Assembly (NCBI RefSeq): GCF_900218015.1
Contig: NZ_UFQQ01000009.1
Span: forward strand, 124,001 to 188,000
DNA length: 64,000 nucleotides
Source of the DNA: Rhodopseudomonas pentothenatexigens
GTDB taxonomy: Bacteria; Pseudomonadota; Alphaproteobacteria; Rhizobiales; Xanthobacteraceae
Reading direction: 5' to 3'
The notes beneath the pieces are model-generated. The model did not search any database. It was given only the letters and a program-made list of their open reading frames with translations, and had not been told where the DNA came from. Within the stretch, counting starts at the first letter, position 1. Each line of letters begins with the position of its first letter. Shown one piece after another: positions 18,128 through 23,782 of this stretch. The position numbers were made by a program, and so were the translations under genes.

Positions 18128-20446
18128 TCACAACGGAATTCGGGCGTAGAGCGTGGTGCCCTTGCCCGGCGCAGTTTCGAGTTCGAGCGAGCCGCCGACC
18201 AGCGACAATCGCTCCCGGATGCCGAGCAGGCCGAGCCGGCTGGTCGGCTGTTTCGGACCGGTGGTGGAGAAGCCCCGGCCATCGTCTTCGACGATCATCG
18301 TCACCTCGTCGCCGCTCAGCCGCAGGATCACGCCGACCTGACGGGCGGCGGCATGGCGGACTACGTTGGTCAGCGCTTCCTGCAATACCCGGTACAGCGT
18401 GGTCTCGACCGCTGACGGCAGCCGGCGCGTGCCGAGCGTCATATGCAGATCGAACTGGATGTTGGATGTCTCGCTCCACGAATCCAGCAGGTTCTGAATC
18501 GCGGTTTGGATGCCGAGATCGTCGAGCACGCTCGGACGGATCTCCCAGGCGAGCCGGCCGGTCTGACGGCCGAGATCCGCGGTCAGACTTCGCATCTCGG
18601 CGATGCGCTGCTGCAGTTCCGGCCGGTCGCCGGCGGCTTGGCCGAGCTTGTCGAAGCCGAGCTGCAGCAGGGTCAGCGACTGCCCGAGCGTGTCGTGCAG
18701 CTCGCGGGCAATACGAAGGCGTTCGGCCTCCTGATCCTCGACGGTCCGGCGCAACACCTGCGAGAGGTCGGCCTCCACCAGCACGCGGCGATCCTTCTCT
18801 TCCTGCAGGCTCTGAGCGACATCTTTGGACCGGTTCAGGCCAACTTCGAGCTGCCGCATCAGTTGTTGTTGGAGAAGTTGCGCCGACCTCCGTTCGCGCG
18901 CGATGCCGTCGATCCGGCGTCGTACGACCTCGATCAGGGAATCGCGCAGCCGGTGAGCGGCGTCGATCTCGGCTTCGCACCAAGGGTCGCTGTGCAGCCG
19001 GACCGACTCCCGCCAATGTGCGGCGCCGCCGCTGCCCGACGCCCGCGTGCCGTCCCTGTCGACGCCCACCGGCCTGTTCGGCGCGCCGGCCCAGGTGACG
19101 TGGCGGACGACTTCGGGACGGAACCACAGCACGTAATCGCGCGGTGTGTTCGACAGCGACAGTGCGATCAGCCCGCAGGCTTGGGCTGCGAATGCTCTGG
19201 CCGGCGGAAACACCAGCGGCAGGCATTCGGTATGGAAAACGCCGTCCTGCGCCACGCCATGCAGCCAGCCGATCAAGGATGCGATCTGCGCCGCGTCCGG
19301 GGTCTGGCCGGTCCCGGTGAATTGACCGTCGATCCACAACCCGACCCCTGCCGCCGGGATGAAGCCGAGCAGGCTCGGATAGAACCGGATCAACCCCTCC
19401 GCGAGGTCGGACTCCTGGCTCATCCGCGTCACCAGTTCCTCATGAATGCGGCCGCTGTGCAGCCGCGCAGTGAGCTGCTCCGCGGCGAGCCGCGTCTCGA
19501 TCTGTGACGACGCCATCTCGCTGAACAGCGCGCATGTCTCGCGCATGCGGTAGGGCAGAAACCGCGGCGTGCGGTGGTGGCAGACCAGCAGTCCCCAGAG
19601 CTCGCCGTCGACCACGAGCGACAGCGACAACGAGGCCGCGACGCCGAGTCGAGCCAGATATTGTCTGTGGTCGGGGGAGGCACTGCGGATCGAGCTCTGG
19701 GAAAGCTCCAGCGCTGCGCCGCTGCGCGGATTGACCTCCGGCACGATGGGCGCGGCGATCGCCCGGGTGTCGGGCTGCATACTGATCCGGTTGCAGATCC
19801 CTGGCCGCTTCGGAATGTCGGGCTGCGGATCGCGCAGCCCGAGAAACGAGCCGACCTCCGGTGCCCGGCATTCTGCGATCACGTCGCAGCAGCCATCGGA
19901 AGCAAAGCGGTACACCATCACCCGGTCGAAGCCGGTCACGCGGCGTAGTTCGGTCGCCATCGCCTCGCAGAATCCCTGCACCGAAGACGCCGGCTGCACC
20001 CGCCGGATCATCGATTGCACCAGCGCGAGCGAATCGTCGGGCGGCGGCTCGCGCCGCGGATCGAATTCGGCCACCAGCAGGCCGGAGGCGTGATGGACGA
20101 TCACGTCGGTGGGGGGGGCATCCGGTGCGTTCAACGTGAATGCGTGGAGCGGCCGCTCGATTGGCCGCTCAGCCATCGCCAGGGTTCGGAGTCTGGCGAT
20201 CTGGTCGGAGGAGAATGCGGTGCTGGCTGCAGTCCCGGGCAGCAGAACCGCGGCGGTTCCCAACAGCTCCTCGGTCGCGCCTCCGGCTTGAACGATCGTC
20301 AGATCGTCCGGCGCCAATGCCAGCAATGCCGCATGGGGATGGATCGAGTCGGACGGGAATGCTCCAAGGCGCGGGCCACCAAAGTGGTCGGACTCGGGGC
20401 AGCTCGCGGGTCTGGACTCGGCCGAATTGTCAAGACCAGAGTACAT
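18128..20446 (-). CDS. Bacteriophytochrome-like sensor histidine kinase lacking the usual chromophore cysteine (BphP4 type)
   Basis: A 772-residue PAS-GAF-PHY photosensory module followed by a HisKA_3 kinase. The PAS part shows [20 protein letters not shown] (about residues 34-53), and the GAF domain [16 protein letters not shown] (the usual PASDIP appears as PQPDIP with Asp kept). The PHY-proximal core is [20 protein letters not shown]...[11 protein letters not shown]. The phosphorylated His is in [12 protein letters not shown] at about 584, and the ATP domain has DDGRGF and LLGIRERL. The residue aligned with the biliverdin-binding Cys is Gly24; the only nearby Cys is Cys16. A GTG 22 codons upstream (20512) could extend it but falls in a dyad-rich control region. 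It lies divergent from pucBA. Confidence 0.9.
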
Positions 20447-20466
20447 TTCGATCAACTCAATTTTCC

Positions 20467-20518
20467 GTGTCCGGGACACGTCGGACCGGTTTGAGGCTGT
20501 CCGGTATGACACGGACAG
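20467..20518. promoter_or_regulatory. Two inverted repeats upstream of the phytochrome-like kinase gene
   Basis: Two perfect 7-bp dyads lie next to each other: CGTGTCC-G-GGACACG at 20466-20480, and CTGTCCG, 8 bases, CGGACAG at 20498-20519. Both share TGTCC/GGACA half-sites. They lie within 75 bases upstream of the kinase ATG (20446) and beside the PpsR-like pair serving pucBA. They look like operators for a dimeric regulator, possibly the adjacent LuxR-type protein. Confidence 0.55.
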
Positions 20519-20525
20519 TCTCTTG

Positions 20526-20569
20526 TGTCATGTTAAATTGACAAAGATGTGTGTCAGGATACTCTTACA
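20526..20569 (+). promoter_or_regulatory. pucBA promoter with paired PpsR/CrtJ-type palindromes
   Basis: Two TGT-N12-ACA palindromes, at 20526-20543 and 20552-20569, are separated by 8 bases. The last six bases of the first site read TTGACA (20538-20543), a good -35. The weak -10 TACTCT (20560-20565) falls inside the second site after a 16-base spacer. Binding would therefore cover both promoter elements. The layout is the same as at bchC. Confidence 0.75.
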
Positions 20570-20789: not shown

Positions 20790-20945
20790 ATGGCAGACGA
20801 TCCGAACAAGGTCTGGCCGACCGGTCTGACGATCGCGGAATCGGAAGAGCTCCACAAGCATGTGATCGACGGCACGCGCATCTTCGGTGCGATCGCCATC
20901 GTCGCTCACTTCCTGGCGTATGTTTACTCGCCCTGGCTGCACTAA
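20790..20945 (+). CDS. pucB: Light-harvesting LH2 beta apoprotein
   Basis: A 51-residue single-pass antenna protein of the inner membrane. The cytoplasmic part has [15 protein letters not shown] with His22, placed near the B800 site. The helix has AIVAHFLAY with His40, the expected ligand of B850 bacteriochlorophyll, and the C-terminus is SPWLH. AGGAGG lies 10 bases before the ATG. Length and motifs match B800-850 beta chains. It is followed after 12 bases by pucA. Upstream is a leader of over 200 bases with the PpsR-type pair. Confidence 0.96.
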
Positions 20946-20957
20946 GGAGTCACTAAG

Positions 20958-21137
20958 ATGAATCAAGGTCGTATTTGGACTGTGGTGAAGCCGACCGTTG
21001 GTCTTCCGCTGCTGCTCGGCAGCGTCACCGTGATCGCGATCCTGGTGCACTTCGCTCTCCTGAGCAACACCACCTGGTTCCCGAAGTACTGGAACGGTAA
21101 GACCGCGGCGATCGAGAGCTCGGTCTCCATCGGCTGA
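20958..21137 (+). CDS. pucA: Light-harvesting LH2 alpha apoprotein
   Basis: A 59-residue LH2 alpha chain starting [20 protein letters not shown]. The B850 ligand is His31 in AILVHFALL. Tyr44 and Trp45 in WFPKYWNG are kept; these donate hydrogen bonds to the B850 acetyl groups in 850-nm-absorbing LH2. That predicts a normal B800-850 spectrum rather than the blue-shifted LH3/LH4 type. AAGGAG precedes the ATG, 12 bases after pucB. A terminator-like hairpin follows at 21167. Confidence 0.96.
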
Positions 21138-21166: not shown

Positions 21167-21190
21167 GACCGGGATCCAAGGGTCCCGGTC
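21167..21190 (+). terminator. Hairpin between pucA and pucC
   Basis: An 8-bp stem, GACCGGGA (21167-21174) with TCCCGGTC (21183-21190), and an 8-base loop, followed by GCTTGCTTTG. The T-run is weak, so it likely gives partial termination and stabilises the pucBA message, allowing lower expression of pucC and the genes after it. Confidence 0.65.
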
Positions 21191-21318: not shown

Positions 21319-22755
21319 ATGAACACAGTCAGCCAGAAGATGATGAAAGTCTGGGGTTCGCTCGGGCCCCGCTTTCTGCCTTTCGCGGATGCGGCCACGC
21401 CGGATCTGCCATTGACGCGATTGTTGCGCCTGTCGCTGTTTCAGGTGGCGGTTGGTATGTCGCTGGTGCTGCTGGTCGGCACCCTCAACCGAGTGATGAT
21501 CGTCGAGCTCAACGTGCCGGCGTCCATCGTCGGCATCATGGTTTCGCTACCACTGATTTTTGCGCCGTTCCGCGCCTTGATCGGCTTCAAGTCCGACATT
21601 CACAAATCTGCGCTGGGCTGGCGCCGGGTGCCGTTCCTTTACAAGGGCACCATGGTGCAGTTCGGCGGCTTGGCCATTCTGCCGTTCGCGCTGCTGGTGC
21701 TGTCCGGTGGCGGCGACGCGGGCCAGGCGCCGGTGTGGGTCGGGCAGGTTGCGGCGGCCGCGGCGTTCCTGCTGATCGGCGCCGGTGTGCACACTACTCA
21801 GACCGTCGGACTGGCGCTGGCGACCGATTTGGCGCCGCCGGAGTCGCGGCCGAAGGTCGTCGGCCTGATGTACACCATGCTGATGTTCGGCATGATCGCC
21901 AGCGCGATCATCTTCGGCATGCTGCTCGCCGACTTCTCGCCTGGGCGCCTGATTCAGGTGATCCAGGGTTCCGCCGTGGTCACCATCGTCCTCAACGGCA
22001 TCGCGTCGTGGAAGATGGAAGCACGGCGCCGTGACAATCCCAATCAGGCGACCGCGCATCCCGATGCGCCGAGTGGCGGCTTCCGGGAGTCGTGGGAGGC
22101 GTTCATCCATGGCCCGAATGCGATGCGCCGGCTGATTGCGGTCGGTTTCGGCACCATGGCGTTCAGCATGGAAGACGTGTTGCTCGAACCGTATGGCGGA
22201 CAGATCCTGAATCTGAGCGTCGGCGATACCACCAAGCTCACGGCAGCTTTGGCGGTCGGTGGCCTGTTGGGCTTCGGCTACGCGTCGCGCGTGCTCAGCC
22301 GTGGCGCCGATCCGTTCCGGATGGCGAGCTTCGGGGCGCTGGTTGGTATTCCTGCCTTCCTTGCGGTGATCTTCTCCGCGAGCCTGTCTTCGACAATGGC
22401 CTCGGCACTGGTGTTCGGCTTCGGGACGCTGATGATCGGCTTCGGTGCTGGTCTGTTCGGCCACGGCACGCTGACGGCGACGATGAATGCGGCCCCGAAG
22501 GATCAGGTCGGACTCGCGCTCGGTGCATGGGGCGCGGTGCAGGCTTCTGCTGCCGGTGTCGCGATCGCGCTGGGCGGTATTTTGCGCGATCTGGTAACCG
22601 CTTATGCCCCGCAGGGGTGGGGCGGCGCCGCGGCGGGTTATCACTTTGTCTATTACCTCGAACTAGTGTTGCTCATTGCGACGCTGGTGACGATGTTCCC
22701 TCTGACGCGGCGGCGCGAGACGATTCTGATGCAGGGCCAGCTGACCGGTTCCTGA
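21319..22755 (+). CDS. pucC: PucC-family light-harvesting complex assembly protein (MFS fold)
   Basis: A 478-residue membrane protein with about 12 helices, of the BCD (bacteriochlorophyll delivery) family. Markers are LFQVAVGMSLVLLVGTLNRVMIVEL (first helix), SDIHKSALGWRRVPFLYKGTMVQFGG (about residues 92-117), GVHTTQTVGLALATDLAPPESRPKVV (about 155-180) and GMIASAIIFG. These proteins are needed to assemble LH2 and may deliver pigment or shepherd subunits. It lies 181 bases after pucA and is followed by the two repeat-protein genes on the same strand. Confidence 0.93.
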   Translation: MNTVSQKMMKVWGSLGPRFLPFADAATPDLPLTRLLRLSLFQVAVGMSLVLLVGTLNRVMIVELNVPASIVGIMVSLPLIFAPFRALIGFKSDIHKSALGWRRVPFLYKGTMVQFGGLAILPFALLVLSGGGDAGQAPVWVGQVAAAAAFLLIGAGVHTTQTVGLALATDLAPPESRPKVVGLMYTMLMFGMIASAIIFGMLLADFSPGRLIQVIQGSAVVTIVLNGIASWKMEARRRDNPNQATAHPDAPSGGFRESWEAFIHGPNAMRRLIAVGFGTMAFSMEDVLLEPYGGQILNLSVGDTTKLTAALAVGGLLGFGYASRVLSRGADPFRMASFGALVGIPAFLAVIFSASLSSTMASALVFGFGTLMIGFGAGLFGHGTLTATMNAAPKDQVGLALGAWGAVQASAAGVAIALGGILRDLVTAYAPQGWGGAAAGYHFVYYLELVLLIATLVTMFPLTRRRETILMQGQLTGS

Positions 22756-22773: not shown

Positions 22774-23421
22774 ATGACGCAAATCATCGCCCGCTTGTAT
22801 GATTCCAGCAGCCGCCTGTCGGCGCTGGAAAGCGATCTGAAAAGCAACAACCTGAAATATACGGTCGTCACCTCCGGCCGTTCATCGGTCGAGGAGATCA
22901 CCGCAGCGCTGGCCAAGGCCGGCGTGTCGCGGTCCGAAGCGGCGACCTACGCCGATTACGTCCGGAAGGGCGGGGTCGTCGTCGCAGCGCAGGCCGAGTT
23001 CGGCTTCGGCGCCAAGGCGACCAAGATTCTCGACAGCTACGGGCCGAACCCGATCAGCCTGAAATCGTCGTCTTCGCGCGCCGCCGAACTGAGCGATGCC
23101 GCGCCGTTCTCGAACATGATCCACGCGCCGGTCCTGCTCGGCACCTCCGGTCCGTACAAATCCTATTCCGGTGACTTGCTGCTGGTCGACAGCGACAAGA
23201 CCTTCTCTGGTACGCCGCTGGTTATCAGCAGCGATGGCCCGTATCAGTCGTTCTCCGGAACACCGTTGTTGCTCGACAGCAGCGGCCCATACAAGTCCTT
23301 CTCCGGGACTCCTCTGTTGCTGGACACCAGCGGTCCGTACAAGTCCTACTCGGGCGAGCCGCTGTTGATCAACAACGCCACACCCTTCTCCTCCTGGCTG
23401 GGCCTGCCAGTGCTACTCTAA
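22774..23421 (+). CDS. Protein with stress-protein-like N-terminal domain and seven 16-residue repeats
   Basis: A 215-residue soluble protein of unknown function starting 18 bases after pucC, with ACGGAG before the ATG. Residues 1-95 resemble the YflT/DUF1269-type general stress fold (IARLYDSSSRLSALESDLKS and YADYVRKGGVVVAAQAEF). From about residue 110 come seven repeats of consensus GPYKS[YF]SGTPLLLDSS. The third unit is three residues short. The first and last units differ from the middle ones but resemble each other (xPFSxxxxxPVLL), as capping repeats would. No signal peptide or helix is seen. Position suggests a role with LH2; that is inference. Confidence 0.8.
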   Translation: MTQIIARLYDSSSRLSALESDLKSNNLKYTVVTSGRSSVEEITAALAKAGVSRSEAATYADYVRKGGVVVAAQAEFGFGAKATKILDSYGPNPISLKSSSSRAAELSDAAPFSNMIHAPVLLGTSGPYKSYSGDLLLVDSDKTFSGTPLVISSDGPYQSFSGTPLLLDSSGPYKSFSGTPLLLDTSGPYKSYSGEPLLINNATPFSSWLGLPVLL

Positions 23422-23436
23422 GTAAAGGAATCGACC

Positions 23437-23730
23437 ATGAGCGAAGAATACAAAGGACACTCTGGACATCCGCTGATCCTCAAGCAGGAAGGCGAATACA
23501 AGAGCTATTCCGGTGAACCGCTGATCCTGAAGCAGGAAGGCGAGTACAAGGGTTATTCCGGTACGCCGCTGATCCTCGAACAGAAGGGCGAGTATCAGAG
23601 CTTCTCCGGCACCCCGCTGGTTCTGAAGCAGGACGGTGAATACCGGGGCTTCTCCGGCATGCCGCTGATCCTGAAGCAGGACGGCGAGTACAAGTCGTTC
23701 TCCGGCTACCCGCTGCTGCTCGATATCTGA
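23437..23730 (+). CDS. Small protein made entirely of six 16-residue repeats
   Basis: A 97-residue protein. After MSE it is five full units and one 14-residue final unit of consensus EYKSYSG[ETY]PLILKQ[ED]G. It is a stripped-down paralogue of the repeat domain in the preceding gene, 15 bases upstream, but more charged (Lys, Glu and Gln instead of Asp and Ser). AAAGGAA precedes the ATG. No signal, helix or catalytic motif is present. Regular [YF]SG-x-PL-x-L units suggest a short beta-strand and turn per repeat, as in a beta-solenoid or a closed beta ring. I know of no assigned function. Confidence 0.8.
   Translation: MSEEYKGHSGHPLILKQEGEYKSYSGEPLILKQEGEYKGYSGTPLILEQKGEYQSFSGTPLVLKQDGEYRGFSGMPLILKQDGEYKSFSGYPLLLDI
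23446..23727 (+). repeat. Tandem 48-base coding repeats
   Basis: Five full 48-base units and a partial sixth lie in frame and encode the 16-residue repeats of the small repeat protein. Units differ mostly at third codon positions (for example CCGCTGATCCTGAAGCAGGA recurring nearly unchanged). This indicates duplication with protein-level conservation rather than a CRISPR array or recent slippage. Confidence 0.8.
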
Positions 23731-23756: not shown

Positions 23757-23782
23757 CGCCGCGGGCAGCAATGTCCGCGGCG
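23757..23782 (+). terminator. Hairpin after the repeat-protein genes
   Basis: CGCCGCGG (23757-23764) pairs with CCGCGGCG (23775-23782) over a 10-base loop, followed by CCGTGCGTTTGGG. It has little U-run, so termination is probable but not certain. It suggests the pucC-repeat unit ends before the flavin monooxygenase gene. Confidence 0.5.

Follow-up and report, generated by a model that had tools for sequence, protein, structure and literature searches.

A repeat protein encoded next to pucC in Rhodopseudomonas pentothenatexigens, a candidate LH2 assembly partner related to LH2-gamma

The window, a stretch of 64,000 nucleotides of the Rhodopseudomonas pentothenatexigens genome, contains an LH2 operon in which the two genes on the 3′ side of pucC (open reading frames 22774-23421 and 23437-23730) encode proteins built from a common 16-residue unit, as the earlier note had observed. 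Beyond two minus-strand genes, one for a bacteriophytochrome-like kinase and one for a response regulator, the plus strand carries in order pucB, pucA, pucC, a gene for a 215-residue protein that is here called gamma-L, a gene for the 97-residue LH2-gamma, and a monooxygenase-like gene; the names of the flanking genes (kinase, response regulator, monooxygenase-like) were read off the sequence without a family search. The spacings reported previously are correct: 18 bases separate the stop codon of pucC from the gamma-L gene, and 15 bases separate gamma-L from gamma. The features of the locus, in window coordinates, are:

20428..20569, plus strand: three TGT-N12-ACA sites (at 20428, 20526 and 20552) 5′ of pucB, from a motif scan
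20790..20945, plus strand: pucB (LH2 beta, 51 aa), from sequence and motif
20958..21137, plus strand: pucA (LH2 alpha, 59 aa), from sequence and motif
21319..22755, plus strand: pucC (478 aa), named from its position, its sequence and its relatives in genomes of the family
22774..23421, plus strand: gamma-L gene (215 aa), an N-domain and a seven-unit ribbon, from the ORF list, the sequence and an alignment of homologues
22774..23046, plus strand: gamma-L N-domain, residues 1-91, with a ferredoxin-like alpha/beta fold in the predicted structure
23098..23418, plus strand: gamma-L array, residues 109-215, consisting of a Ser-less unit, five S-G units and a Ser-less unit, from the sequence
23167, 23206, 23254, 23302 and 23350, plus strand: Ser codons of the gamma-L array, from the sequence
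23437..23730, plus strand: LH2-gamma gene (97 aa), six units with Ser codons at 23461, 23509, 23557, 23605, 23653 and 23701, from the match to PDB 7zcu_S (E 1.7e-57)
23757..23782, plus strand: hairpin 3′ of gamma with an 11-pair G+C-rich core and no T run, from folding

TGT-N12-ACA sites, a motif of the PpsR/CrtJ type, number 10 in the window where 4.9 are expected, and three shuffles also reach 10; three of the sites fall within one 142-base stretch. The hairpin 3′ of gamma is a possible transcript end, in a 79-base stretch that folds with a z-score of -2.1 and is equalled by 7 of 200 shuffles. Between pucA and pucC there is a terminator-like hairpin of 10 pairs (window 21167-21190), which could make expression of pucBA and of the distal genes uneven; it is among four terminator-like sites in the searched stretch, where 2.5 are expected.

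The 97-residue protein is, by sequence comparison, the orthologue of LH2-gamma (RPA1495, UniProt Q6N9P5; PDB 7zcu, 7zdi, 7ze3 and 7ze8, chain S): in a phmmer search of PDB sequences its residues 1-97 matched residues 1-97 of PucA-LH2-gamma with an E value of 1.7e-57. It consists of exactly six units, with serines at positions 9, 25, 41, 57, 73 and 89 and a spacing of 16 throughout, and thus has the same length and number of units as the gamma of Rhodopseudomonas palustris. The latter protein, the product of the gene named RPA1495, forms an extended ribbon that has no regular secondary structure and runs round six of the nine alpha-beta pairs in the headgroup region on the cytoplasmic side. Each Y/F-S-G repeat contributes a serine as ligand to the Mg of a single bacteriochlorophyll a, so that gamma is bound to LH2 with six bacteriochlorophylls (PMC9618040). 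It was also detected by mass spectrometry with low-light LH2 (PMC9897067). The authors of the structure know gamma from Rhodopseudomonas only and find it unclear why its length covers just part of the ring (PMC9618040). The association with LH2 proposed in the earlier note is therefore right and, for the small protein, known from experiment, so that the part of the finding that concerns this protein is not new. Pfam offers no useful family for either protein, DUF3823 and Crystall matching the 97-residue one under their cut-offs, and NCBIfam gives only chance-level matches for both proteins.

The units of gamma-L match those of gamma, whose PDB chain it hits with an E value of 1.4e-27, and the repetition is visible in the DNA too as a 48-nucleotide spacing. 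Counting the units gives seven, as had been claimed, of which five have the form Y/F-S-G, with serines at 132, 145, 161, 177 and 193 (spacings 13, 16, 16 and 16); the 16-residue spacing ascribed to both proteins thus holds throughout gamma but is broken once in gamma-L. The first and last units had been described as differing from the inner ones and resembling each other, and both indeed lack the ligand serine: read from the sequence in exact register, its place is taken by Ile116 in PFSNMIHAPVLL and by Leu209 in PFSSWLGLPVLL. If gamma is defined as six ligand units and nothing else, gamma-L departs from it in having five ligand-type serines rather than six, Ser-less units at both ends and an extra N-domain, and because of these sequence features it is filed as a gamma paralogue and not as LH2-gamma. 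Nearly all of its repeat part has a pLDDT below 50 in the AlphaFold single-chain model, and this, with the extended ribbon of gamma (PMC9618040), gives no support to the closed or stacked beta structure that had been suggested.

Profile searches of the PDB found no chain related to gamma-L except gamma; alignment A5 gave two chance matches (E at least 0.64) and alignment A4 four (E at least 0.44). Searches by locus tag and by subject in open-licence PMC papers, supplementary files not included, found no paper on gamma-L and no experiments on it, and RPA1491, RPA1492 and RPA1495 were the only locus tags named in the available parts of the literature found. The earlier description of both proteins as undescribed is consequently wrong for the small one and holds for the large one within that literature, where gamma-L and the wider puc-linked family look undescribed, with the caveat that Rhodobacter PucD and PucE could belong to it as distant members.

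The occurrence of gamma-L next to pucC was surveyed in 391 genomes of the family, in each of which up to four candidates (pucC relatives with E ≤ 1e-90) were scored. Among the candidates scored there are two classes of pucC relative, one of 23 genes in 20 genomes with at least 74% identity, which are of LH2 type, and one of 50 genes with 57-62% identity, which are presumably LhaA-like. By coordinates, gamma-L lies directly downstream on the same strand at 23 of the 23 LH2-type genes scored, and a gamma-L match (E ≤ 1e-5) adjoins none of the 50 others. Full-length gamma-L matches in the family number 25, comprising these 23 and two that adjoin pucBA pairs without pucC (G006 and G014); the gamma-L profile includes these sequences, and a separate single-sequence search also recovered them.

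Outside the family, order- and class-level searches that ran from the gamma-L side only gave strong matches in 24 genomes, and in every one of these the match lies in a puc locus. In the order sample (387 genomes), all 15 genomes with E ≤ 1.1e-10, the genome of the window excluded, have the homologue at such a locus: immediately 3′ of pucC in 12 of them, between pucC and either pucA or pucB in two, and divergent from pucB in one. In the class sample (337 genomes), the nine genomes with E ≤ 8.7e-12, likewise with its own excluded, all have it within about 1 kb of pucA or pucB; in seven it lies between pucBA and pucC, two of these having a second pucBA pair before pucC. By the family codes in the N-domain tree, puc-linked homologues occur in 14 other families. 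A puc-linked gamma-L family can be defined here by a shared N-domain, units of about 16 residues and linkage to puc genes, all of which were found.

Weaker matches align mainly at about residues 40-115, and the ones whose whole sequence was read proved to be Gly-zipper proteins that match YflT (PF11181); no pucC, pucA or pucB was found within 1.5 kb of five such class-level matches (L160-L164, E 4e-9 to 1e-7). There is also a divergent side branch in which the N-domain is joined to other short repeats away from puc, with no pucA, pucB or pucC at eight of its loci (6-13 kb each), two of them in this genome. Homologues located mostly away from pucC and in non-phototrophs, the pattern that the earlier note had held to speak against its idea, were thus sought and are not what the close family displays, although the side branch exists.

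Several further observations were made at these loci. Neither of the two paralogues of this genome (L091:6307-6837 on contig C44 and L092:6217-6714 on contig C30) has a puc gene in the surrounding 6 kb or so, and L091 carries PxSSL repeats that are short, about 10 residues each. The two matches without pucC (L079:6025-6660 in G006 and L080:6099-6734 in G014) are gamma-L paralogues situated between two pucBA pairs; they have five ligand serines and no C-terminal Ser-less unit, and there is no pucC in the stretch searched. In R. pseudopalustris (G012), where contig ends break the operon, the searches recovered no complete gamma-L and no LH2-type pucC, and its two truncated gamma pieces do not enter the count of 21 gamma copies. 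Ten plasmid records have pucC relatives, all below 60% identity, and three overlap bchM. A putative peptide-deformylase-like gene, so named from its ILEYPDPRL-type start, is found 3′ of pucC in six of the nine class-level puc loci (L175, L177, L178, L179, L180 and L181). In LH2 alpha it is the N-terminal Met, in modified form, that serves as ligand to B800 (PMC9618040), so this operon-borne deformylase-like enzyme may act on that Met; no paper with the word "deformylase" was among those that a literature search gave. RPA3011, a low-light-induced hypothetical gene adjoining pucBAd in strain CGA009 (PMC6879726), was considered as an LH4-linked gamma-L. Gamma-L-like genes occupy the place between two pucBA pairs in L079 and L080, but in the genome of the window that place has a response-regulator-like ORF, with no gamma-L remnant by tblastn, and no identity is claimed for RPA3011.

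The gamma-L and gamma genes are both under purifying selection, with dN/dS of 0.17-0.37 for gamma-L when the window copy is set against 19 others (the second L076 copy, L079 and L080 being omitted) and 0.08-0.75 for gamma in 19 comparisons, where the three highest values belong to forms with 13-residue spacings. Gamma-L has no known phenotype and LH2 structures contain gamma alone, as would be so if it were in decay, or a neutral side product of the gamma gene, with no role of its own, but dN/dS in that range in 19 comparisons, its presence at all 23 LH2-type pucC genes and its puc-linked homologues in 14 other families make such an explanation highly improbable. A separate feature of these genes is that four-fold degenerate sites are little diverged from five close relatives (L061-L064 and L075) in the repeats: 28 of 308 differ in the repeat half of gamma-L (23095-23418) and 24 of 214 in gamma (23437-23727), versus 487 of 1472 in pucC. 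Recombination, gene conversion and mRNA-level selection are candidate causes. Relative to four more distant genomes, the low four-fold divergence of the gamma-L repeat half is absent (0.30-0.55).

The N-domain is modelled by AlphaFold as a mixed alpha/beta structure, with 10-residue blocks of residues 1-90 at pLDDT 79-89, and a second model gives blocks at 75-94 over the same residues. Foldseek finds only generic ferredoxin-like folds (NDK and PII) and nothing below E 0.001 with either model; the likeness to PII/GlnK is weak, with probabilities up to 1.0 but E at least 0.05. From a domain so well folded in two models and faintly reminiscent of PII/GlnK, one might suppose that gamma-L is a regulator or membrane anchor, whose N-domain would respond to a ligand or associate with PucC or with pigment enzymes while the repeats just tether it to LH2. 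The N-domain, however, has a higher dN than the repeat part in 19 of 19 comparisons, so the constraint sits on the ribbon, and we judge a regulator or anchor improbable.

The N-domain had also been called stress-protein-like. Gamma-L gives no match to the YflT Pfam model even at E 10, and of 12 distant puc-linked homologues two match it at E ≤ 0.1 (best 0.0014) and 10 do not. Support for the claim is indirect, from a profile alignment by hhalign of the N-domain to Gly-zipper members that pass the YflT cut-off (probability 97, 51 columns); it is located at their residues 116-166, whereas the YflT model itself covers their residues 7-45. When ten relatives and alignment A6 were scanned with Pfam and NCBIfam, and alignment A4 with Pfam, no common family other than YflT was found, and YflT was above its cut-off in two Gly-zipper proteins, at chance level (E 0.14) in L091, and present in two of 12 members of A6.

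No S-G unit arrays were found in 26 puc-linked homologues outside Rhodopseudomonas and two related genera (g6 and g46). In 79 pattern-matched units from 25 homologues without arrays, the ligand position is hydrophobic in 71 (mostly Leu or Phe, otherwise Ile, Trp, Met or Val), Thr in three, Ser in two and another residue in three. The C-parts of 25 homologues without arrays nevertheless have a pooled autocorrelation at lag 16 with a z-score of 19.8 (19.1 for 16 sequences from 15 families), values that overstate the signal because the sequences are related. Taken singly, 11 of the 16 have at most one of 300 shuffles as high, and L145, L166, L177, L179 and L182 have 6 to 53. No such period was found in the N-domains (z -0.1) or in the eight paralogues that lie outside puc loci (z -0.3), where lag 10 gives the strongest signal (z 6.9). 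The 16-residue period therefore tracks linkage to puc and not rows of pigment ligands, which fits one unit docked per alpha-beta pair.

In family f20, four of the five homologues (L147, L148, L149 and L165) carry one lone S-G, placed where the ligand would be in one of their units (V/L/F/I-S-G-I); they may be an independent variant that would hold one pigment. With Ser in two of the 79 units and this single S-G in four of five homologues, the change to Ser may have occurred more than once.

In four genomes a third protein, repeat-only and of 145 residues, is encoded 3′ of gamma:

L066:6076-6510, third repeat-only protein
L070:3077-3511, third repeat-only protein
L071:225-659, third repeat-only protein
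L076:10168-10602, third repeat-only protein

It has eight ligand-type serines and closes with a Ser-less unit that keeps the register exactly, which brings its units to nine; R. pseudopalustris is among the species that have it. Ligand serines number five in 23 of 23 copies of gamma-L, six in 20 of 21 copies of gamma and eight in four of four copies of the third protein, the exception being a gamma with four serines that adjoins an eight-serine protein in L066. Unit spacings are 13, 15 or 16 across the three proteins, and in L058, L060 and L078 most gamma spacings are 13 with the count still six. Since the serine count is kept as length changes, the number of ring positions seems to be what matters.

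The N-domain tree, built on 53 rows and 107 columns without the repeats, requires one change to account for the S-G-array state, on a branch with support of 92/91 that adjoins the non-puc side branch, the tree being midpoint-rooted. Because the array-less form is distributed more widely, the direction of change was probably from Ser-less to Ser. We infer from the shared units and the adjacency of the genes that gamma arose from the repeats of gamma-L; the ligand position of the array would have gone from Leu or Phe to Ser, and gamma would have arisen afterwards.

The function that we propose for gamma-L, with an even chance of being right, is that of an old girdle that docks on the LH2 ring during its assembly, one unit per alpha-beta pair, and whose repeats later acquired pigment ligands and became the source of gamma. 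Of the functions suggested in the earlier note, scaffolding of LH2 assembly is thus the one favoured as a hypothesis for the large protein. Its seven units would dock in the register of gamma, as the shared units and period suggest, while the folded N-domain would stay in the cytoplasm. The protein would act as the ring is built, next to PucC, and keep the alpha-beta pairs in order; in Rhodopseudomonas five of its units could each hold a bacteriochlorophyll, so that the girdle would also offer pigment. The timing is suggested by the linkage to pucC and by ring arithmetic: because six gamma units and seven gamma-L units exceed the nine sites of a nonamer, both ribbons should not be fully docked on one ring, and gamma-L would be on other rings than gamma or be present at another time. 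Against a girdle are the absence of structure in the repeats in the single-chain model and the fact that some members of the family lie outside puc loci, this genome having two.

A different explanation is that gamma-L is a stable alternative gamma subunit on a minor LH2 population (PucE rings, for example, or those made under certain light), to which it would add up to five bacteriochlorophylls and whose packing its cytoplasmic knob may set. The conservation of five ligand-type serines in 23 of 23 copies would be accounted for, as would a repeat part more conserved than the N-domain and the paralogues of two genomes (L079 and L080), which adjoin pucBA pairs that lack a pucC. In the available parts of two reports, however, the one extra band described for purified LH2 is at about 10 kDa (PMC9618040) and the 10-kDa protein is likewise the only one named with LH2 (PMC9897067), so gamma-L is not likely to be an abundant stable subunit there, and the retention of array-less homologues in puc loci makes rows of pigments an unlikely ancestral job. 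A stable subunit is rather unlikely on balance.

The assembly-phase girdle may be extended to a broader reading: LH2 operons across Alphaproteobacteria would encode an unrecognised docking protein, with one 16-residue unit for each alpha-beta pair, that girdles or measures the growing ring, changes from Leu or Phe to Ser in the Rhodopseudomonas lineage would have made it a bacteriochlorophyll carrier, a repeat-only copy would have become gamma, and the nine-unit third protein of four genomes would encircle the whole nonamer. This broader reading is offered tentatively, as possible and somewhat short of probable. From the results presented here gamma gains a likely origin, in the wider puc-operon family, along with named relatives that have five and eight ligand serines, and its count of six is seen to persist even where unit spacing varies. 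Gamma-L becomes a candidate LH2 assembly partner of PucC, and the family offers a traceable case of a scaffold repeat acquiring a pigment ligand.

Among known systems, PucE of Rhodobacter is a 14-kDa LH2-associated protein. PucD and PucE (pucBACDE) are encoded 3′ of pucC as gamma-L is (PMC9231093), a likeness in gene position, and they could be distant members of the gamma-L family. The light-harvesting assembly proteins PucC and LhaA (BCD family) share an operon with gamma-L in the case of PucC, whose reported function in Rhodobacter is assembly (PMC4949548), but are unrelated to it in size and sequence, gamma-L not being transporter-like. General-stress-type proteins of the YflT group have Gly-zipper members that align with the N-domain, whereas gamma-L has no YflT match, no Gly-zipper part and a repeat ribbon instead. 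The LH1-gamma of Blastochloris viridis, likened here by description, is also an extra outer polypeptide of a light-harvesting ring (PMC10214105), but it is present as sixteen separate polypeptides per ring against the beta ring, in contrast to one ribbon of many units.
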